A DNA stretch of 36,108 nt from a virus. Below the pieces are notes generated by a model, which worked only from the letters and a program-made list of their open reading frames with translations, was not told the DNA's origin and searched no databases. Shown one piece after another: positions 8,738-34,309 of this stretch. Numbering within the stretch: position 1 is the stretch's first letter; every line of letters begins with the position of its first letter. Position numbers and translations under genes: made by a program. The stretch covers positions 1 to 36,108 of IMG/VR virus record IMGVR_UViG_3300030450_002904. One strand, 5' to 3'.

Positions 8738-8749
8738 AGGGTCTACCCT
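8738..8749. promoter_or_regulatory. Operator copy inside the tail operon
   Basis: AGGGTCTACCCT is a perfect 12-base inverted repeat of the recurring operator family, in the 52-base gap between the tail tube and chaperone genes. It is followed by TACGCA in the place where the strong promoter at 23566-23593 has TATACT. A weak internal promoter or a repression site is likely; no good -35 is visible. Confidence 0.7.
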
Positions 8750-16425: not shown

Positions 16426-16450
16426 AGGTTTAATGAATTTGTGAAACCCT

Positions 16451-16900
16451 TTGGCTTACTCATCAGGAAAAGACGGGGAGTTATTTATCGATAACAATCC
16501 TGCGTCAGCTCGCGTTAAGTCATGGAGCCTTTCGGCTTCGCAAGAAACTATCGACACAACATTTCTTGGGGACACTGACCGAACATTTAAAGAAGGCGTA
16601 AGATCCCTTACGGGCCAGTGTGAAATTGCCTACTATTCTGACGGTAATGGCGAATCAGATGCTAAGACTCTAATTAATAAAATCTTTAAACCAAGAACGT
16701 CATCGACTGAAGGTGGTGTAGCTGCTGAACAAGGAGAAACCACCTTAAAATTAGGGTTTAAAAACTACGTGGGAACGCTCCAATATTGGACGCTAAAAGT
16801 CTTATTTACGTCTATGTCAGTTACCTGTTCACAAGGGGAGATATTCACTGCGTCAGGATCCTTCACTGTTAATGGTGCTCCAACCGAGGTTTCTGTTTAA
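16451..16900 (+). CDS. Tail-tube-fold protein, first of a paralogous pair
   Basis: A protein of 149 residues, start taken as TTG at 16451 since no ATG or GTG fits this frame nearby. The segment ARVKSWSLSASQETIDTTFLGDTDRTFKEGVRSLTGQCEI is a standard motif of tail-tube-like proteins, and a shorter version of the motif in the next gene. It ends with ALTASGSFTVNG-type strand pattern (IFTASGSFTVNGAPTEVSV). A second tube-fold protein this far downstream of J is not part of the lambda set. It could form a distal ring, a fibre adaptor, or a replacement tube protein. The fold call is by motif. Confidence 0.65.
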   Translation: MAYSSGKDGELFIDNNPASARVKSWSLSASQETIDTTFLGDTDRTFKEGVRSLTGQCEIAYYSDGNGESDAKTLINKIFKPRTSSTEGGVAAEQGETTLKLGFKNYVGTLQYWTLKVLFTSMSVTCSQGEIFTASGSFTVNGAPTEVSV

Positions 16901-17766
16901 TGCCTGTAATTACTGGGCAGACTGGTTATATAGAATTAAGAAGGACGTCCGGGCATTTCTTCCGGGCGTCTTTAACTAGCAATGCTGTTAATACGACAAG
17001 AAAAAGATTTGGCGTAGCGGGGATGAGTGGGACCGTTCTTACTGGGGACAAAATTACAATTAAAAGCGCTGATGGTGTAACGGCTTTAGGTCTTGTTTCA
17101 GGAAATAGTGGTACTGAATGGACAGGTTTTGCGGCTGTCGATGATATAGGTGGTTGTCGTTTGTATATTAATTTTCAGCAAGCTCTTACTGGCGGTATTG
17201 CTAATGCTTTGACTTTGACATCTCCGCCAACAACAAAAGATATTATTATTGAAACTAACGACAGTATTTTTCGACCATTAGCAAGAATTAGAGATTTCAG
17301 TTTTACGACCTCTAGGGAGACAATTCAAGTTGACCAATTAGGGGACGATTTTCAGCAAATGTATAAATCCGGGAGAATACAGGGGCAAGGTGAGATAAGC
17401 GCAGACTTTGAACATCGATATGTTGCAACGGATCCTGGTTTTACTTATAACCAAGAGTTTTCTGTTTATTTAGCTCGCCTTTTAATGCGCTTAAATCAGG
17501 GATCCGAGTTTCTAGGTAAATTTTTTATTTATAGAGAAAGTGGCGGGTCAGGAAATAATTGCTGGTATGAAGCCGACGCGATTATTACGAATTGCGGTAT
17601 CAATGTTAGTCCTTCTCAAATAGTTTCGACAAATATTAATTTCGTAACGACTGGTGAATTCAAGATGAATGTGGGGGCTTCTCCTGGATTCCTATTGAAA
17701 GAGGATACGGATTATCTACTACAGGAATCAGGTGACAAGATCTTCTTAGAAGACGATGGAGGATAA
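16900..17766 (+). CDS. Tail-tube-fold protein, second of a paralogous pair
   Basis: A 288-residue protein overlapping its neighbour by one base. The middle contains LARIRDFSFTTSRETIQVDQLGDDFQQMYKSGRIQGQGEISADFEHR, aligning with the upstream gene's ARVKSWSLSASQETIDTTFLGD... block. The first 110 residues are a separate beta domain. The C-terminus, FLLKEDTDYLLQESGDKIFLEDDGG, is the short LLxESGDxLxLED repeat that often ends phage adhesin or fibre-bound proteins. It lies just before the fibre gene, so it may anchor the fibre. Function is inferred. Confidence 0.62.
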   Translation: MPVITGQTGYIELRRTSGHFFRASLTSNAVNTTRKRFGVAGMSGTVLTGDKITIKSADGVTALGLVSGNSGTEWTGFAAVDDIGGCRLYINFQQALTGGIANALTLTSPPTTKDIIIETNDSIFRPLARIRDFSFTTSRETIQVDQLGDDFQQMYKSGRIQGQGEISADFEHRYVATDPGFTYNQEFSVYLARLLMRLNQGSEFLGKFFIYRESGGSGNNCWYEADAIITNCGINVSPSQIVSTNINFVTTGEFKMNVGASPGFLLKEDTDYLLQESGDKIFLEDDGG

Positions 17767-17823
17767 TATTTCTAAGTATGCTTAGGGAAGTTAATATATA
17801 AAAGAAAGTGTTTCGAGGATTAA

Positions 17824-20800
17824 GTGGCTGATTTACAAATAACGCAATTACCATCTGAAACAGGTACCGTTGCTAGTACAGATGTCCTAGCAATCGTCAA
17901 TATTACGGCGGCTGAAACTCGAAAAATAACAACTACTAATTTATCTACTGCAATTTTCCAGTTTCTAGGCGCAGGTGGCCTAGCCGCTTCAAAAGTTGCA
18001 GCGGGGTATCCCGGTGGTTCATTAACAGATGCATCTGTAACGAATGCAAAACTAGTTAACGCGAGTACAAATTTTGGTGGCGTTGATGTTTCACTTGGCT
18101 CGGCGGATCTGACGCCTGCCTTTGATTTGCAGGATGCTACTAATTATCCTGCCTCGGCTTTAACAGGAACCATTACGAATGCCCAATTAGCCGGAAGCAT
18201 TGCGAATAGTAAGCTTGCTTCTTCGTCTGTTTCATTTGGCGGAATTTCTGTTTCGCTTGGCGCGAGTGATGCGACGCCTGCCTTTGATTTAACTGATGCG
18301 ACAAATTATAAAACAAGTAGCTTAATCGGGACTATTACAAATGCTCAGTTAGCCGGCTCAATAGACGTTTCTAAACTTTCTGCAAATACTAATTTTTCTT
18401 TAGGTGGTGTCAGTATATCTTTAGGCCAAACCATTGCGACACCTGCTTTTGATCTCCAAAGTTCTACAGGTTATCTTACCTCTAATCTATCGGGCACTAT
18501 TAGCAATGCTCAATTAGGTGGTTCGATTTCTAATAGTAAGCTTGCGAACAATACTGTATCTTTTGGTGGGGTCGGTCTTAGTCTTGGTTCCGCCGATGCG
18601 ACTCCGGCTTTCGATCTTCAAGATGCAACAGGCTATAAAACTACGAATTTAGTAGGCACTATCACCAGTGCTCAATTAGACGGAAGTATAACTAATTCGA
18701 AATTACAAAATTCATCAATTTCTTTAGGTGGTGTAAGCCTGTCTTTAGGTCAAACATATGCCACCCCAGCTTTAAACCTGAGTCAAGCGACAGCATACCC
18801 TACTAGTTCATTAGTTGGGACCATTACTAACGCTCAGCTTGCAGGAAGTATTGCAGGTACAAAATTAGCTGGAGGGATAACAAACGCTCAACTTGCGGGA
18901 TCAATAGCAAATTCAAAATTAATAAATTCATCTCTATCTTTAGGCGGCGTTCAAATTGACCTTGGAGCCGCAGATGCGACGCCTGCCTTTGATTTACAGG
19001 ATAGTACAGGGTATAAGACGACCAATTTGGTAGGAACCATAACTAACGCTCAACTTGCGGGAAGTATTGATGCATCAAAGTTAGTAGCAGATAGTTTAAC
19101 TTCTACTCAGCTAGGGGCTAATTGTGTTGGTGCATCAGAATTAGCAAATCTTTCTGTAGCAACTGCCTCTGTACAAAGTGGAGCTATAACAAATGACAAG
19201 ATTGAAACAAGTAGTAGCAGCACAACCGGGATCGATGGCGGGACGAAAATACGGGCCAGCAGCATACCTGTAAGCAAGCTAGATGCTTCTACGGTTGGGA
19301 ATGGCTTAGCTATTAATAGCAATGTACTTTCAATTGATAACAGTATTACGGGAGCTACAAGCCTTGGTCTGACATTCTCGAACCAAGGCGTCTGCACTGG
19401 TATAGCTGCGATACAAGCCAGTGATCTCTCTGGTGTTTTGGCTACTTCTAGCGCTGTTGGTGTTGTCAAGGTACCGACCTCTGGAGGCTTAACAGTTAGT
19501 GGCTCCGGCGACCTTTCGCTCGCCTCGACTGTAAGCTCACATACCACTCGCGGGATTGCTGTTAATGCCTATGGTCAAGTCACTTCTGTTAGCGCAACGG
19601 TCCCTAGCGCTTCCCTGCCTGTCGCTAGCACTACAGAGGTAGGCGGAATTAAGGTTCCAAGCACATCTAGCCCTCTGACCGTGGATGGGAATGGAATTCT
19701 AACGATTGGCGTTAGTGGAGTTACAGCCGGAACAGGTTACACTAAATTTAATGTGACCGACAAGGGAATTATTAGCAGCGCTGGGGCCTTGGCTGCCAGC
19801 GACATACCGAATATTAGCGCTGCATTGTTAACGAGTGGGACGGTTGATATAGCTCGAATCGGTTCGGGGACAATAGATAAGACTAAATTTAGTAATGAGT
19901 CAACAACAGTTTTTGGATCAGTAACTCAATCAGGTTTTCCCTCAGGATCCTTCTCTGGACAGCTATTTTTTGACTCTGTAGAGGAAGATTTATTCTTATA
20001 TGACGGAGCGGCGTGGCAACCCGTGACGACACTCACTAAAGGCTCGCTGAAACTGGGAGGGGTCTATTCTTGTGCAACATCGGCAATGACCGCCGTCACT
20101 TCACACGGTTCCTCAGTCGGTCTTACCATTGGGCAAAATCTACCTAGTCCCACCTCTACAACAGACGCGACATATGTAATAGTTGGGACCGGGGGAACGC
20201 CTAGCGGTATCCCAAACGGGCCAACTGGTGAACTAATCCCACCTGACTATATCCTTTCTGTGACCTCAAGTACGGGGTCGGTATGGACCGAAATCGATTT
20301 GAGCACAACGGTTTCAAGTCCTACAGCTGCGAATGTCAGTGTCCTAAGCGGCTATGGTGGTAGCTCTACAAATGTTCAGAATGCTTTTGCTGAAATATAT
20401 TCAGATTTCTTAAAAGTTGGCGGTGGAAATGTAACGGGAGAATTAAAAATTGAATCATCAGGTTCATTCGCTTTTGAGGGAACAGCTAACGATTACGAGA
20501 CTCGTTTAACTTGTGTTGACCCTGGTACAGCTGATCGTTTGATTACTTTTCCTGATGCCTCAGGGACTGTCTTGCTTAGTGGTATTTCCAATCAAGTAAC
20601 ATCGGCAATGATCACTGATGCAACGATTGTTAATGGTGATATAAGTGCAACGGCTGGTATCCAATTATCAAAACTAGCGGCGGTTTCAGCAGGTCAAATT
20701 TTAGTAGGAGCAAGTGGCACAGGAACGATAACAGCTGTAACACCTACAGGAGACATAGCTATTTCATCAGCGGGCGCGCTTTCTTATGTGGCAGGTTCGA

Positions 20801-23565: not shown

Positions 23566-23593
23566 TTGACATATTAAGGGTCTACCTTATACT
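23566..23593 (+). promoter_or_regulatory. Strong repressible promoter of the exported-protein region
   Basis: TTGACA at 23566-23571, 16-base spacer, TATACT at 23588-23593. The spacer contains operator AAGGGTCTACCTT (23576-23588), so a bound repressor would sit between the polymerase contact sites. It is oriented to transcribe the plus-strand genes 23616-25680. This is the cleanest promoter in the window. Confidence 0.82.
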
Positions 23594-23615
23594 TATAAAC
23601 AGTTGAAACAATTTG

Positions 23616-23873
23616 ATGCTTGACCGTAGCGAACTCGCCAAAGAAAAGAAAGCACTATTAGAAGAGGTGAGAACGATAGAAACGAATGCTAATGCTCAAA
23701 TAGAAGCAATTCAAAGAGAAGCCCAAGAAGAAATAAAGCCTCAAAAAGAAAAAATAGAGGCAATTCATTCAGAAGCTCAAGAAGAATTAAAGCCTAAAAC
23801 AAAAAGAGTTATTGAAATTAATAATTTATTATTAAAGTCGATAGACGAAGAAGCCGGAATATCAAATGATTAG
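23616..23873 (+). CDS. Small coiled-coil protein
   Basis: An 85-residue all-helical, strongly charged protein with heptad-like spacing throughout (ELAKEKKALLEEVRTIETNANAQIEAIQREAQEE...). The unit IEAIQREAQEEIKPQKEK is repeated once as IEAIHSEAQEELKPKTKR, an internal duplication. Start is ATG 23616; TTG at 23613 is also in frame. It overlaps the next gene by 8 bases. It is the first gene of a cassette otherwise made of membrane and exported proteins. Function unknown. Confidence 0.7.
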   Translation: MLDRSELAKEKKALLEEVRTIETNANAQIEAIQREAQEEIKPQKEKIEAIHSEAQEELKPKTKRVIEINNLLLKSIDEEAGISND

Positions 23874-24069
23874 GATTTTAACTCTAGCTAATACCTGTAT
23901 TCTTATATTGATCGTAGGGGGCGCTACGTTCGCTTATTTTCAACGTGGGAAAATAACGGAATCAGTAATTACTGAAGTAAAGAAGCAATTACCTTCTCTT
24001 ATTAAGGGAGCTGTGCCAAAAATAAGCGTCCCATCCTCAACAGGTAATGTTTTGCCCTTCAATAGATGA
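23866..24069 (+). CDS. Small membrane protein
   Basis: A 67-residue protein with one N-terminal membrane segment (residues 5-24, TLANTCILILIVGGATFAYF), then a short basic and Pro/Ser-rich tail (PKISVPSSTGNVLPFNR). Topology is likely N-in. Overlaps both neighbours by a few bases, so it is translated in a coupled unit. I cannot assign a function. Confidence 0.7.
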   Translation: MIRILTLANTCILILIVGGATFAYFQRGKITESVITEVKKQLPSLIKGAVPKISVPSSTGNVLPFNR

Positions 24070-24623
24070 TTCAATTCAAGTCATTTAATGGTCTTAGTAC
24101 GTTGGTGATGGCTGTTGGATTGATAGCGACAAATTTTATGAGCTTAAATATTTTGTCTCGTAAAGATGGAGGAATCCCAGATATAGCAAAGCTTAGTAGT
24201 ACTCCCTATTCGTCTCTTCAAATACGAAGTAATAAGGCTGCTGATGGAGCGGAGGAGTGGTCTTTCAATTCTCGTCAGCATGATCCAAAGACTATGTTGA
24301 CTTATACCGATTCAGAAATTCCTACTTTTAAAGGCAAGGTTAAGAAGCAATTTACTCATAAGGAATCAGTAGCTCAATTTGCAATTTATCCTCAGGGGGA
24401 GGGAGGGAAATTAACCCAAAAGCAGATTGAATGTATCGAAAAAAAAGCGCAAGCGAGATCTGCAGGCAGGATGATCGCTGATGCTGGATCAGTTCAGGTT
24501 AGTCCGGCTATATTGAGCGTACCTATAGTAGGCCCCGTTCTTGCTTCTATCTTCTTTGATCAAGCTAGGAAACAGGTAGGTGACATATCAAGTTCTATTG
24601 CCGAGGATTGGAACGACTGTTAA
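24066..24623 (+). CDS. Membrane-anchored protein, 185 residues
   Basis: An N-terminal hydrophobic segment (residues 9-30, LSTLVMAVGLIATNFMSLNI) suggests a membrane anchor with the rest outside. The middle is charged, with a possible second hydrophobic stretch near residues 147-165 (SPAILSVPIVGPVLASIFF). It overlaps the previous gene (ATGA at 24066-24069). Unrecognised, but part of the same operon as the two genes before it. Confidence 0.7.
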   Translation: MIQFKSFNGLSTLVMAVGLIATNFMSLNILSRKDGGIPDIAKLSSTPYSSLQIRSNKAADGAEEWSFNSRQHDPKTMLTYTDSEIPTFKGKVKKQFTHKESVAQFAIYPQGEGGKLTQKQIECIEKKAQARSAGRMIADAGSVQVSPAILSVPIVGPVLASIFFDQARKQVGDISSSIAEDWNDC

Positions 24624-24636
24624 GGATAAATACCAG

Positions 24637-24819
24637 TCATCCACCATGCATACCGTCAAATGTTGCATGATAGTCACTGTTACTTACGAAAGATAAATAT
24701 TCATAAAAATCTGATTTATCGCACTCGTTCAAATTTATTTGTTCATACATCTTATCGATGTTGGACCATGTGGGAAAAATAGGATGCCTACATGTATATT
24801 CAGGTGCGTTAAATTTCAT
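24637..24819 (-). CDS. Possible small minus-strand gene, 60 residues
   Basis: An open frame in the 220-base gap between two plus-strand genes. The product is rich in Asp, Tyr, Asn and Phe with two cysteines (YTCRHPIFPTWSNIDKMYEQ, then a region of NECDKSDFYEYL), a composition that looks coding rather than random. It has no visible ribosome site and faces against its neighbours. If it is not a gene, the gap is unexplained. Confidence 0.45.
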   Translation of the reverse strand: MKFNAPEYTCRHPIFPTWSNIDKMYEQINLNECDKSDFYEYLSFVSNSDYHATFDGMHGG

Positions 24820-24843
24820 ATAGAAGATTTTTGTTTTAGATAA

Positions 24844-25680
24844 GTGGCAGAAATACCAGATGTAAAAATTAGGGAAGTACCAATTTGGTCAATAGATCTA
24901 ACTATAAGCAATCCAACTATTCCATCACTAAATAATCAAATACGCTTTAATGGCTTTCCTTCGATCCGTATGCCTGGATGTGTAAGGACAAGAGTTGTAA
25001 GAAATAAATCTTTAATAGAGAAAGATCCTAAAGGGAATGTTTTAATTTGTGACGGGCCTATTTTTGAAATGCCTACATTTAATGTTGATAATATTTTAAG
25101 CTCACAAAATGAACAGGAGCCAGAGGAAACAGTATCAGAAGAACAAATATTAACTCCACCAATTAAGGATATTGCAGATGTGGTAAATACAAGGGGAAAA
25201 AAGAAGAATAAACAGGGAAAGAAAGAGGGTGAAAATAAAGAAGATTTTTCAGGTAATGATTTTAATACTGATGTAACTGAAATTGATTTAAATCAACAAG
25301 CAAAATTAGAATTACCGTGTCCTTTGCCCGGATCAATTCCCCCCGGCGCACCATCTAAACTTTCAAACAAAATTGTCTTAAGGTATGAAAAGAACGGTGA
25401 AATATGCGAAACAATTTATCAAGATAGAGCTTTATTTGATGTCATTAATTCATACGTTCCGCCTCCTACAACTTTGGTTTCAACTGCGTTAATTGCTACT
25501 ACTTCAGTCGTAATGGTCACGGCTTTTGGGCAACCGTTAGCGAAGTTTTTACAAGGCAAAATCAAAGGACAAGTGAAGTCATTTAGTCGAAAAATCACGA
25601 AAAAGATATTAACTATGCGTGGCAAAAAACCTAAGATCCTTTCGTTGTCTGAACGTCGGAAGGCTCAACGTGATCGATAG
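24844..25680 (+). CDS. Putative virion/membrane protein of cyanophage type
   Basis: A 278-residue protein, start GTG 24844. The N-terminus has a PDVKIREVPIWSIDL, then FNGFPSIRMPGCVRTRVVRNKS, and DPKGNVLICDGP. The motif PGCV followed by DPKGN...CDG is a style I recall from conserved structural proteins of T4-like cyanophages (not checked). A charged Lys/Glu/Asn linker spans about residues 100-160, then a second conserved block CPLPGSIPPGAPSKLSNKIVLRYE. A membrane segment (STALIATTSVVMVTAFGQPLA) lies near residues 217-237, followed by a basic tail. It overlaps the converging minus-strand gene by 50 bases. Confidence 0.65.
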   Translation: MAEIPDVKIREVPIWSIDLTISNPTIPSLNNQIRFNGFPSIRMPGCVRTRVVRNKSLIEKDPKGNVLICDGPIFEMPTFNVDNILSSQNEQEPEETVSEEQILTPPIKDIADVVNTRGKKKNKQGKKEGENKEDFSGNDFNTDVTEIDLNQQAKLELPCPLPGSIPPGAPSKLSNKIVLRYEKNGEICETIYQDRALFDVINSYVPPPTTLVSTALIATTSVVMVTAFGQPLAKFLQGKIKGQVKSFSRKITKKILTMRGKKPKILSLSERRKAQRDR

Positions 25681-26308
25681 AGTGCTTGTGTTGAATTAAT
25701 ACCCCGCTAGGTGTAGTAAGTAAAACGTCTGAACATACAACAAAGCTAGGGCTATCCTCTGCAAATACATAGCCGAGTTTTTTCTGTGTGGCGCAATGCT
25801 TAAGCCGTGAGAGCGAATAATCTAATTTTTTTGTTTTCACGGCCATATCTAAAAATTCAACTCTTTTTTTCATTGCCTGTTTACATCGTTTAACAGCCTC
25901 CCTATCCAATGGCATTGCGATAGTCGCAGTAAGACCGAAATTTCGGGAGAGGTTATGTCGTGGCTGTCCAGTTCGAACAGGTCGAGTAAAAAGGATAAGG
26001 CCAGGGTTTATTAGGTCTCCATTTTCATCTGTCGAATCGTCATATATATTCTCATCCCAATAAGGTTCATAAGGATCTTTCCAACTATTCACATTCGCAA
26101 TAAATGGATTAATAGTTAAAGTTGTACCGCTGCATCTTATCCCGTCCCCTATCTCCTGATACATGAAAGATCCAGTTTGAACCTGGATACCTTGATTCAC
26201 TACGGAACCTTGGCTTGAGCTAGAAGGCGATGCTACAACTGTAGAATTAGCATGAACTTGTTTACAATTAAAGGTTAAAAGTAAGAGTATTAAATGGTAT
26301 TTTTTCAT
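25631..26308 (-). CDS. Exported protein with signal peptide, 225 residues
   Basis: A clear signal peptide (MKKYHLILLLLTFNCKQVHA) with cleavage likely after residue 20. The mature protein has a beta-rich first half (TVVASPSSSSQGSVVNQGI, ... GDGIRCSGTTLTINPFI) and a second half with a helical, cysteine-containing region (REAVKRCKQAMKKRVEFLD, LSRLKHCATQKKLGYVF, FVVCSDV). The FGLTATIAMPLDREAVKRCKQ stretch resembles a motif I recall from cyanophage exported proteins. Last gene of a four-gene minus-strand operon with 4- to 14-base overlaps; not a known enzyme. Confidence 0.7.
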   Translation of the reverse strand: MKKYHLILLLLTFNCKQVHANSTVVASPSSSSQGSVVNQGIQVQTGSFMYQEIGDGIRCSGTTLTINPFIANVNSWKDPYEPYWDENIYDDSTDENGDLINPGLILFTRPVRTGQPRHNLSRNFGLTATIAMPLDREAVKRCKQAMKKRVEFLDMAVKTKKLDYSLSRLKHCATQKKLGYVFAEDSPSFVVCSDVLLTTPSGVLIQHKHSIDHVEPSDVQTTKGS

Positions 26309-26742
26309 TGTAGAAAAACACTCACACTTTCAACGATGCTTTCAGTTGTCGTCGTCCTGTTTATTGTTGTGACATTGGACAGTGAAGGGGCGAGAAGGCT
26401 TTCTGAAAAATTAAAAGATGCACCAGGCGTTTTAAGTTTCCAATCAGGCTTGGTTGAAGCGTCAATACCTGTCCATTGAAAAGTTACACCATCTATTGTC
26501 TGTGGATCTAGCAAGGTTGCTTTAGGACTAATCATGTCACCATTAACAGGCTCTATCCCTGAACCACTAACGGTGTATTGATAGCCGCTTGTATAATCTA
26601 CGGAGACAATGTTCTCTACTATTACAGATTTAACCTCTTGTCGGGAATTTAAAGTCCCTGACGAGAATTGAGGCGTGACAACATTTGCATTCGCCTTGAC
26701 ACCTAATAGCAGAAATAAAACTAGAAACTTATTTAAGTACAC
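26305..26742 (-). CDS. Exported protein with signal peptide, 145 residues
   Basis: Signal peptide MYLNKFLVLFLLLGVKANA, cleavage probably after residue 19. The mature part has a Ser/Thr-rich beta pattern (TPQFSSGTLNSRQEVKSVIVENIVSVDY, YQYTVSGSGIEP, ASFNFSESLLAPSLSNVTTINR). The VSGSGIEP and FSFSES-like segments also occur in the neighbouring protein (SVSGTNIQ, FSFQESF), so the two may be distant paralogues with one fold. Overlaps by 14 bases with the gene before it and by 4 with the gene after it. Confidence 0.68.
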   Translation of the reverse strand: MYLNKFLVLFLLLGVKANANVVTPQFSSGTLNSRQEVKSVIVENIVSVDYTSGYQYTVSGSGIEPVNGDMISPKATLLDPQTIDGVTFQWTGIDASTKPDWKLKTPGASFNFSESLLAPSLSNVTTINRTTTTESIVESVSVFLQ

Positions 26743-27229
26743 TCAATTCTGACACAGTTTGAATAATGACGTCTGAACCTGGCCCACCACCGGCACCAGT
26801 TACTAGATGTTCTGAAGTTAGAGTTATTACTCCGGCTGTATGACCGCCAGCTCCCGTCGTGGTCGTAGTCCACGCAGGCAAGGAACCAACCGTCCCATTT
26901 GCGACTGACGTATTTGATTGTATTGCGTCACCACCTAAGAAAGATTCTTGAAAACTGAATGCCGACCCATCTTGATGGATCTTATAATTTGCATGTGCTT
27001 TTTGAGTAGCGGCGGAGCCATTTGATCCGGGAGTTAATCCCCCAAACACATCACTGTTACCTGTACCGACTTGAATATTAGTACCACTTACTGAATAAGT
27101 ACTAGCCCCGCGTTGTGATGTTGAGAACGCATTATCAAGACTTGTCTGGCCTGATGTAGTTATACGATGAATAAAATTGGCATTTACAGGAGTAGCCAGG
27201 AGGAGGAAGGGGATTAATAGTCGTTTCAT
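26729..27229 (-). CDS. Exported protein with signal peptide, 166 residues
   Basis: Signal peptide MKRLLIPFLLLATPVNA, followed by NFIHRITTSGQTSLDNAFSTSQRGASTYSVSGTNIQVGTG, then FGGLTPGSNGSAATQKA, YKIHQDGSAFSFQESFLGGDAIQS, SLPAWTTTTTGAGGHTAGVI and a closing VSELSV. The ordering SxYSVSGxNI ... G.AFSF.ES...GDA ... LP.....TTTT.GG.AG resembles a protein I recall in several T4-like cyanophages. It is Gly/Ser/Thr-rich with no cysteines and probably a beta-sheet surface or virion protein. No enzymatic motif is visible. Confidence 0.68.
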   Translation of the reverse strand: MKRLLIPFLLLATPVNANFIHRITTSGQTSLDNAFSTSQRGASTYSVSGTNIQVGTGNSDVFGGLTPGSNGSAATQKAHANYKIHQDGSAFSFQESFLGGDAIQSNTSVANGTVGSLPAWTTTTTGAGGHTAGVITLTSEHLVTGAGGGPGSDVIIQTVSELSVLK

Positions 27230-27615
27230 TCTTTTGATGCAATGGGGGGTTTAGTAATAATTTCTATTGGTTGCTTTAATACTATTGTTTGTTGACCTCC
27301 TGTGTTATTATTCGCGTCACCATTTTTCTTCTTTTTAGATCCCATATTGACCCCAAAACTAGTCAGAATTCCGCCCAGCAAAGATGCTGGAAAAGTTGGA
27401 TCTATGCCTATCTGCTCTGGGATGTTGAACTGTATTCTTTCACCTATCTTTATATTTTCAGGCAAACGAACATACGATAAAGTTAACATACTAATCGACC
27501 AAAAAAGTATGAATAATTTTACCCCTACCGATACAAATTCTAGCCATAGGGGGTCGTCGTCTTCCTCTTGGTTTTGTTGAATTACGGCGGTCTCGTTTGT
27601 TTCTTGTTCAGACAT
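27226..27615 (-). CDS. Membrane protein, first gene of the exported-protein operon
   Basis: A 129-residue protein. Acidic N-terminus (ETNETAVIQQNQEEDDDPLW), then a membrane segment at about residues 29-50 (SVGVKLFILFWSISMLTLSYV), a middle linker (LPENIKIGERIQFNIPEQIG) and a second weakly hydrophobic segment (FPASLLGGILTSFGVNMG) with a basic run KKKKNG, then a proline/isoleucine tail. It could tether the three exported proteins encoded downstream. Its promoter region lies in the 27616-27668 gap, which contains a 22-base palindrome. Confidence 0.68.
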   Translation of the reverse strand: MSEQETNETAVIQQNQEEDDDPLWLEFVSVGVKLFILFWSISMLTLSYVRLPENIKIGERIQFNIPEQIGIDPTFPASLLGGILTSFGVNMGSKKKKNGDANNNTGGQQTIVLKQPIEIITKPPIASKE

Positions 27616-27644
27616 AGGCGTGTCCTTGCTGCTCTAACGTAATA

Positions 27645-27666
27645 AACTATAAATCAATTTATAGTT
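27645..27666. promoter_or_regulatory. Perfect 10-bp inverted repeat between divergent genes
   Basis: AACTATAAAT and ATTTATAGTT flank a CA centre, a perfect palindrome of 22 bases between the minus-strand cassette (start 27615) and the plus-strand small genes (start 27669). Its arms contain TATAAA and TTATAG, so it may overlap a promoter for either direction, or form a hairpin at the 5' end of the plus transcript. It is not of the recurring operator family. Confidence 0.6.
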
Positions 27667-27668
27667 GC

Positions 27669-27839
27669 ATGACGATTCCTCACGAAGTACAAGAGAACGC
27701 CGCAAGGAACCAACATCTAGAGAAACTCTTCCATTTAGATAATCGTTCAGACCCTTCACATCCTCACGCGCATACTTTCACTAATTTGCATCAAGAGTAT
27801 TTAATCTATGAAAAATGGAATAAGAGGCTTGTTCAATGA
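27669..27839 (+). CDS. Small protein, 56 residues
   Basis: Reading from the ATG at 27669 gives a protein rich in His, Asn, Gln and Glu (ENAARNQHLEKLFHLDNRSD, then HPHAHTFTNLHQEYLIYEKW). It overlaps the next gene by ATGA (27836-27839), which supports it as real despite its size. It contains no membrane segment. Unknown function. Confidence 0.6.
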   Translation: MTIPHEVQENAARNQHLEKLFHLDNRSDPSHPHAHTFTNLHQEYLIYEKWNKRLVQ

Positions 27840-28018
27840 GCGAAGTGATAGCGGCTTCAATTGGTGCGATAGTCTCTATTTTCTTGTTTACTCTTTCAAT
27901 TGTTATCAACAGAAAGGAAAAAGATACAAGAGCCTTATTTAAAAAAGTTTCGATATTAGAGCAAAGAGTATCAACTCTTGAAGGATCAGGGCGAAATAGG
28001 AACTGGCGAAGTAAGTAA
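27836..28018 (+). CDS. Holin-like or spanin-like small membrane protein
   Basis: A 60-residue protein with a membrane segment at residues 4-24 (VIAASIGAIVSIFLFTLSIVI), a basic patch (NRKEKDTR) and a short coiled coil (KKVSILEQRVSTLEGS). This layout fits a small single-segment holin or the inner-membrane part of a spanin pair. It is the only candidate lysis gene noticed; no endolysin with known motifs is next to it. The call is by architecture only. Confidence 0.4.
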   Translation: MSEVIAASIGAIVSIFLFTLSIVINRKEKDTRALFKKVSILEQRVSTLEGSGRNRNWRSK

Positions 28019-33512: not shown

Positions 33513-33540
33513 TTGTCAAAGGGTCAACCCTTGATAGTAT
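33513..33540 (+). promoter_or_regulatory. Operator-promoter of the repressor gene
   Basis: TTGTCA (33513-33518), 16-base spacer, TAGTAT (33535-33540). The spacer begins with AAGGGTCAACCCTT (33519-33532), a perfect palindrome, immediately after the -35. The site suggests autorepression of the gene starting at 33566. Confidence 0.82.
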
Positions 33541-33565: not shown

Positions 33566-34309
33566 GTGCCAACACGTAAACCAAATATTTACCGACTTAA
33601 ATTCGGTCAATCGTTTAAGCGCTACAGAGATCAATTTGATTTGAGCCAGCAAAATATTCACGCCCTTTGCAAAGCAGCAAGAATTAACTTATATAATTCA
33701 CAACTTAGTCATTTGGAACAGGGAAAATTAGAGCTTAAGTCTGAGGGTTATACGATGATTCGTGATTTTAATAAAATAATTGATTCTGGTAAATTTCCAC
33801 CAACTGTATCGAAAACAGGTGGATTCACAGTAGAACTTAGGGATAAATTTCGAAAAGCCGAACCCTATTTAGATGCTGATGATAAACCAATATTATTTGC
33901 ATATCAGTTTTTTGCCTTAATTGTTGGAGAAGCAGAAATTAATAAGAAGTATAAATTTGAGGGAATTAAAATTGATAAATCAGTTGCAAATAACGTTAGT
34001 GCATTTGATAGAACTGTCTTTCAAGGTTTCGCGATAGAGGAATTGTTAGACAGAAAGGAGGCCTGGAAGACTTTAAGTTCTCACCTTGCAAAAGATTTAA
34101 ATCAAAAGCAACAAAAAAGAATGAAAGAAGTTATTACTGGTTTTTCAGATTGGACAGTTGATGAATTGAATTTCTTTACCAATAACGGTACTTGTACAAC
34201 ATGTGTTGTTATGGATGCTTTGGCTAGTTGGACCGGCAAGAAAATGCCCCCTCTATACGATGTATGGACAAAAGGAGCCAAAATAACATGGGAAGAAATA
34301 TCTAGATAG
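33566..34309 (+). CDS. XRE-type transcription regulator, likely lysogeny repressor
   Basis: A 247-residue protein from GTG 33566. Residues 10-60 (FGQSFKRYRDQFDLSQQNIHALCKAARI, then SQLSHLEQGKLELKSEGY) fit an XRE helix-turn-helix: SQQNI, LCKAARI as helix 2/turn, and SQLSHLEQGK as recognition helix. The remaining 180 residues are helical, with CTTC near residue 212, and contain no LexA/S24 peptidase Ser-Lys pair. So it would not be cleaved by RecA in the way CI is. Copies of its operator lie directly upstream and downstream. Repressor identity is inferred from this and its place. Confidence 0.75.
   Translation: MPTRKPNIYRLKFGQSFKRYRDQFDLSQQNIHALCKAARINLYNSQLSHLEQGKLELKSEGYTMIRDFNKIIDSGKFPPTVSKTGGFTVELRDKFRKAEPYLDADDKPILFAYQFFALIVGEAEINKKYKFEGIKIDKSVANNVSAFDRTVFQGFAIEELLDRKEAWKTLSSHLAKDLNQKQQKRMKEVITGFSDWTVDELNFFTNNGTCTTCVVMDALASWTGKKMPPLYDVWTKGAKITWEEISR

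Follow-up and report, generated by a model that had tools for sequence, protein, structure and literature searches.

What can eight genes for membrane and exported proteins, set under an operator in a small siphovirus, be doing for the phage? The question is raised by positions 23566-27615 of the IMG/VR virus record IMGVR_UViG_3300030450_002904, whose 36,108 nucleotides are called here the window. A first account made from the letters of this DNA (the sequence-only reading) had described an operator-controlled cassette with features reminiscent of T4-like cyanophages. Judged by homology and gene order, the block is the 'mobile hypothetical cluster' of T4-like cyanophages described by Sullivan 2010 (PMC3037559), with all its families together and with the genes of PHROG 564, 650 and 848 convergent with the arm that carries PHROG 570. 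That cluster comprised T4-GCs 218, 219, 234, 235 and 237 plus a plasmid stability protein, and was reported from all T4-like cyanophages but S-PM2, with no function given. The function favoured here, with a probability of roughly 45%, is that of a cyanophage-specific, late-expressed module that opens the host envelope for lysis or egress; one of its proteins would act as a holin, others would act on the outer membrane, and the phage would be released. The families themselves are not new, whereas their distribution, regulation and position and the lysis hypothesis are.

The cassette consists of two arms of four genes each, which overlap tail to tail by 50 nucleotides (nt), a detail that corrects the earlier account. 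Its proposed limits were borne out, since the TTGACA box of a promoter stands at 23566 and the DUF6450 gene starts with base 27615. Eight or nine genes in two converging operons had been announced; eight are supported by homology and the operons do converge, but the ninth open reading frame (24637-24819, minus strand) found no support as a gene. The plus arm begins with a gene for a small coiled-coil protein (23613-23873; 86 amino acids (aa) from the TTG at 23613, the ATG at 23616 being the likelier start), which is lineage-specific and gave only weak coiled-coil matches, together with a weak Rz-like match in the PHROG scan (E 0.044). It is followed by PHROG 568, the 'plasmid stability' family (T4-GC414; 23866-24069, E 1.5e-7), a small protein with one N-terminal transmembrane (TM) segment; by PHROG 605 (T4-GC219; 24066-24623, E 1.8e-13), a membrane protein with N- and C-terminal hydrophobic segments; and by PHROG 570 (T4-GC234, 'gp164'; 24844-25680, E 8.6e-28). 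The minus arm comprises, in order, DUF6450 (PHROG 2714 and 721, T4-GC218; 27226-27615, Pfam PF20048, E 7.9e-15), PHROG 564 (T4-GC237; 26729-27229, E 2e-26), DUF6322 or PHROG 650 (T4-GC236; 26305-26742, Pfam PF19847, E 8.3e-30) and PHROG 848/1755 (T4-GC235, 'gp165'; 25631-26308, E 1.7e-59). The T4-GC numbers are those of the GC-labelled Syn19 genes matched by the models built here. Both Pfam matches exceed the curated cut-offs (103.7 against 30.6 bits for DUF6322 and 54.9 against 25 bits for DUF6450). The coiled coil, the membrane proteins and the three signal-peptide proteins listed by the sequence-only reading are thus all present, as seen from homology, hydropathy and signal-peptide features.

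The cassette is nearly universal in marine cyanomyoviruses, which places it among the commoner unexplained gene sets of ocean viruses. By tblastn, 423 phage records contain 848 and 399 contain 650; all are named as Synechococcus phages, Prochlorococcus phages or cyanophages, or are uncultured marine records, with no named phage of other hosts among them. Each scan of IMG/VR yielded at least 570 relatives. The homologues are therefore not limited to the lineage of the window, as more than 420 phage records of several cyanophage types carry them. Most of the 171 loci compared have one core order in common, and the convergent core is ordered alike in P-HM1, P-SSM2, S-TIM5, S-TIM54, the T7-like Oinezvirus and the siphovirus P-HS2. 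The suggested likeness to T4-like cyanophages and exchange across phage families agree with this, because order and orientation are common to T4-like, S-TIM5-like and T7-like phages and to two unrelated siphovirus lineages. On a tree of 564, 650 and 848 taken together, the cassettes of the window and P-HS2 lie far apart, so that the two siphovirus lineages would hold separately derived copies. Among the contigs of the IMG/VR neighbours on this tree, a Gp23 model was matched only in that of locus L100, and the terminase of the window only in that of L093. A search of phages at the DNA level gave no match. In the literature searched, DUF6322 and DUF6450 are unnamed and the gene set is named only by Sullivan 2010.

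From its genes, the window looks like a new carrier of the cassette, an S-CBS/S-LBS1-like siphovirus with repressor-type control. All families, the gene order of each arm and the convergent 570/848 junction are shared with the cluster of Sullivan 2010, but the window differs in belonging to a small S-CBS-like siphovirus, in its repressor-type control, in the place of DUF6450 as first gene of the exported arm and in the extra coiled-coil gene. The T7-like phages 9515-10a and NATL2A-133 (gp165 region) resemble the window in having 570-like, DUF6450, 650 and 848 genes after the fibre genes; unlike it, they carry them all on one strand, with a short 570-like gene, and PHROG 564, 568 and 605 were not found there. 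The DUF6322 homologue of T7-like cyanopodoviruses (L004, 5495-5893; L307, 3339-3911) lies in a frame that is unannotated in 9515-10a and is only called 'conserved hypothetical' in NATL2A-133.

The two arms meet where the genes of 570 and 848 overlap antisense within their coding 3' ends (25631-25680 in the window). This overlap spans 29-233 nt in 128 of 155 loci, with 32 distinct lengths, and the codon phase is the same in every one of the 128 loci where it exceeds 20 nt (within L001-L171). This is most simply explained if the phase became fixed in an ancestor and both arms have travelled joined. Such conservation bears on the idea of a selfish cassette without host-directed function, moved by its 'plasmid stability' protein. 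The cluster was indeed termed mobile in Sullivan 2010 (PMC3037559), and it is found in unrelated phages at different sites. Nevertheless, reading frames, order and overlap phase are kept at low identity, invariant residues suggest purifying selection, and neither recombinase nor plasmid features are seen in PHROG 568, a tiny protein with a single TM segment; selfishness is the least probable of the explanations considered. A plasmid stability function was rejected for PHROG 568 because of its tiny size and single TM segment.

The position of the cassette in the genome gives a first indication of function. The terminase and capsid of the window are closest to those of the isolates S-CBS1, S-CBS3 and S-LBS1, in which the fibre gene is followed by small membrane proteins and a lysozyme, without the cassette. 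In the window the cassette fills this lysis slot and is followed by a gene for a small TM and coiled-coil protein (27836-28018, plus strand), whose VEQRVSKLE resembles, by eye and with no statistical test, the LEQRVSTLE of the protein encoded beside the lysozyme in S-CBS3 and S-CBS1. The slot after the fibre and a similar-looking small TM/coiled-coil gene are hence common to both, but the isolates carry a lysozyme and lack the cassette, and in the window, where the cassette is present, no lysozyme was recognised. No relative of the S-CBS/S-LBS1 lysozymes was detected in the window by tblastn, and family scans of its main open reading frames matched no endolysin, although an unrecognised enzyme is possible; in P-HS2 no endolysin was found among the 20 of 64 proteins scanned. 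The cassette also follows fibre and fibre-assembly genes in Oinezvirus and P-HS2. In 9515-10a and in podovirus contigs from host genome assemblies the order is fibre, 570-like, DUF6450, 650, 848 and then terminase genes, and in NATL2A-133 the same four genes also lie between fibre and terminase genes. This interval of T7-like cyanophages is the place of the T7 holin gene 17.5. It had been stated that the cassette genes were unlike known lysis genes; this holds for their sequences but not for their position, which is the lysis slot of S-CBS1, S-CBS3 and S-LBS1 and of T7-like cyanophages.

The predicted topologies point in the same direction as the slot. Hydropathy gives TM-like segments in 568, 605, 570 and DUF6450. 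Two of them are present in 142 of 151 members of the DUF6450 family, with a basic C-tail of net charge +3; the copy in the window has one strong TM segment, the second being weak at a stricter hydropathy threshold. A small protein with two TM segments and a charged tail has the layout of a class II holin, and DUF6450 can be regarded as holin-like. In PHROG 570 the alignment reveals invariant Cys motifs, a single TM segment (about 209-229 in the window) and a basic C-tail, which fits a C-in topology with the Cys domains in the periplasm. The motif PGCV...DPKGN...CDG, which had been linked to T4-like cyanophages, proved to be the family signature of T4-GC234, that is, of PHROG 570.

Proteins 848, 650 and 564 are beta-rich, Ser/Thr-rich and probably exported. 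In each, a basic n-region and a hydrophobic core are accompanied by a site of the A-x-A type, which by eye is VHA|N in 848, ANA|N in 650 and VNA|N in 564; a crude signal-peptide rule called 848 and 650 and missed 564. Export of all three, as first proposed, is thus upheld at the level of prediction. The signal peptides have a type I look rather than a lipobox, and a lipoprotein o-spanin reading of 848 was rejected for lack of a lipobox. The beta-style core that two exported proteins had been said to share was confirmed by hhalign of 650 against 564 (97%, E 1.6e-11), and by this comparison PHROG 650 and PHROG 564 are paralogues. The AlphaFold model of 650 shows a small head surrounded by two long strands (28-51 and 120-144), with a predicted local distance difference test (pLDDT) score of 79; that of 848, in which an invariant Cys is found, has a beta region and a 42-residue helix (pLDDT 70). 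Weak structure matches of both models are to beta-hairpin oligomers (lysenin, PA-type pores, MspA, the flagellar L-ring and a phage collar) and serve as a hint only. In BFVD, the named matches of the 650 model with clear scores are cyanophage proteins.

It had also been suggested that the exported proteins form an envelope-attached layer of the virion. Virion proteins acquired at the envelope would suit the position after fibre genes and the weak resemblance that beta-hairpins of tails and collars bear to the 650 model. However, the signal peptides speak against assembly in the cytoplasm, and in the S-TIM5 and S-TIM54 records the label of virion structural protein is given to neighbours of the cassette and not to its genes. 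Besides, occurrence in several cyanophage types, and in no named phage of other hosts, argues for a function at the host envelope rather than in the virion, and this explanation is very unlikely.

Regarding expression, the plus arm is preceded by a promoter, TTGACA-16-TATACT (23566-23593, plus strand; 11/12 consensus), with the operator AAGGGTCTACC at 23576-23586, between its -35 and -10 boxes. The operator AAGGGTNNACC is matched seven times in the window, at six places, where 0.19 matches would be expected; none of 100 shuffles reached that number. The sites mostly precede genes. The -35/operator/-10 block is kept in L008, L009, L012/L013 and L093, where the cassettes have diverged. The earlier placing of this promoter in a repressor regulon is supported by the operator count and the conserved block, which indicate repressor-type control of the 570 arm. 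An operator lying within the promoter implies that the arm would be silent in a repressed prophage. Sites of the form AGGGTNNACC, at 8738, 23577, 29676, 30964, 33520 and 34357, outline a phage-wide regulon; the one at 8738 precedes a tail gene. A symmetric operator, CAAAGGGTCAACCCTTG (33517-33533), stands before the gene 33566-34309, which is by its position the candidate repressor; family scans gave no match for it. Integrase PF00589 is absent from the window and from three relatives, which may be fragments. An operator-like site also precedes the DUF6450 arm in several relatives; the window has none there, and has the palindrome AACTATAAATTGATTTATAGTT at 27641-27670, between the divergent DUF6450 and 27669 genes.

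In T4-like relatives the timing is suggested by another signal. Of the 88 loci in which DUF6450 is the first gene of the 570 arm, 22 have the T4-type late promoter NATAAATA in front of it, at -28 to -30; fewer loci have this promoter before 564, at -62 to -72. The background is 0.035 per 150 nt. The cassette genes would accordingly be late in at least some T4-like relatives.

The envelope-opening function is favoured because of the lysis-slot position, the topology of DUF6450, the late promoters and the repressor-type operator, and because no endolysin was found in the scans of the window or among the 20 P-HS2 proteins. The evidence is of the kind that sequence provides: homology, gene order, the operator, paralogy, signal-peptide and TM features, and genomic position. 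According to this model, DUF6450 would be a holin-like protein of the inner membrane, with PHROG 568, 605 and 570 as its inner-membrane partners; the Cys-rich domains of 570 would face the periplasm. The site of action of the exported 848, 650 and 564 would be the periplasm or the outer membrane. There, beta-rich oligomers might span the outer envelope or weaken it, taking over from the lysozyme and spanins that are usual elsewhere. In the siphovirus, the operator would keep the 570 arm silent until the lytic cycle.

Several observations weigh against this function. S-PM2 lacks the cassette (PMC3037559), yet it is a lytic phage, and in P-HM1 the cassette lies among auxiliary metabolic genes, away from the tail. 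The cassette has no enzymatic domain and no lipobox o-spanin; comparison of the 650 and 848 models with solved structures (PDB; Foldseek and VIA-align) returned nothing significant, and the exact late-promoter motif was not found in most loci. Within the tail module of the window, 11792-12166 matches NlpC/P60 weakly (E 0.018) and could encode a tail peptidoglycan hydrolase. Finally, three cyanobacterial assemblies (L275; L276, 159-2834; L277, 302-2034) have 564-650-848 facing a 570-like gene, at a chromosomal locus that adjoins ndhA/ndhG/ndhE and citrate-synthase genes. The 570-like gene was judged by architecture, its profile match being weak or absent, and no match to DUF6450, 568 or 605 was found in these assemblies. 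Since cyanobacteria keep 564-650-848, the exported proteins are not lethal by themselves, which suggests that this part is tolerated by living cells; these loci support a host origin or a domesticated copy and weaken a purely lethal interpretation.

Other relatives of 848 on cyanobacterial chromosomes (core homology by hhalign 97.9%, E 3.7e-13) are encoded next to housekeeping genes, within series of genes for small exported proteins. Beta-rich and Cys-rich proteins and Ala-rich ones of 350-390 aa were noted at such loci (L271, L272, L273, L278, L279, L294, L295 and L296). In these operons 848 is homologous to that of the cassette, whereas hhalign of the partner proteins against 650, 564 and 570 gave no support for kinship beyond the signal peptide.

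Such operons favour surface remodelling, in which the exported proteins, in the manner of pelagiphage curli, would build a fibre or layer at the surface of the infected cell and so hide its receptors (superinfection exclusion) or bring about aggregation. The beta-rich, Ser/Thr-rich character of the three predicted exported proteins is in keeping with this, and so is the fact that fibre genes adjoin the cassette in the window and in Oinezvirus, P-HS2 and T7-like cyanophages. For the curli (type VIII secretion system, T8SS) module of pelagiphages and methylophages, both lysis and exclusion have been proposed (PMC9599517, PMC9004378), and it is likewise a phage-borne set of exported proteins swapped among phage families; it occurs in SAR11/OM43 phages, whereas the cassette occurs in cyanophages, and no sequence relation between them was found. 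PHROG and Pfam scans of the cassette gave no CsgG/CsgF or curlin match. Late, repressor-controlled genes would be off in a prophage, which argues against exclusion, and surface remodelling leaves the holin-like protein and the lysis slot unexplained. It is a possible but doubtful alternative; if true, it would be a parallel to the curli module of SAR11 phages.

Restriction to cyanophages and cyanobacteria, as far as searched, also invites a destination in the thylakoid lumen or membrane, with altered photosynthesis during infection; the lumen had found no place in the sequence-only reading. Cyanobacterial signal peptides serve both membranes, and in some T4-like genomes the cassette lies beside psbA/hli genes. 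In small phages, however, it lies beside fibre genes and away from photosynthesis genes, no likeness to lumen proteins was found, and P-HS2 was reported without known auxiliary metabolic genes (PMC7852597). A thylakoid role is accordingly unlikely.

Returning to envelope opening, a stronger version would make the cassette the missing lysis or egress machine of marine cyanophages, opening the envelope without classical endolysin and spanins by means of the holin-like DUF6450, a Cys-rich protein of the inner membrane and beta proteins that are exported through Sec and oligomerise. Cyanophages of the T4-like, T7-like, S-TIM5-like and siphoviral types would exchange this machine as one piece, and some hosts would have retained a form of it that lacks the holin. 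This stronger version is tentative; a lysis system of this kind would explain how these phages leave their cells without recognised lysis genes. The spread over cyanophage morphotypes, the lysis slots and the repressor-type control in a small phage make the function testable and offer small, laboratory-friendly versions of the cassette.

Two observations concern the neighbourhood of the cassette in other phages. In Oinezvirus (L314, 16855-17220), an extra 121-aa exported protein ending in Phe, with the look of a small outer-membrane protein, is encoded between fibre assembly and the cassette. In P-HS2 (L315), genes for an FkbM methyltransferase-like and a Tet/JBP-like oxygenase protein lie side by side, at 16431-17132 and 17129-17914.

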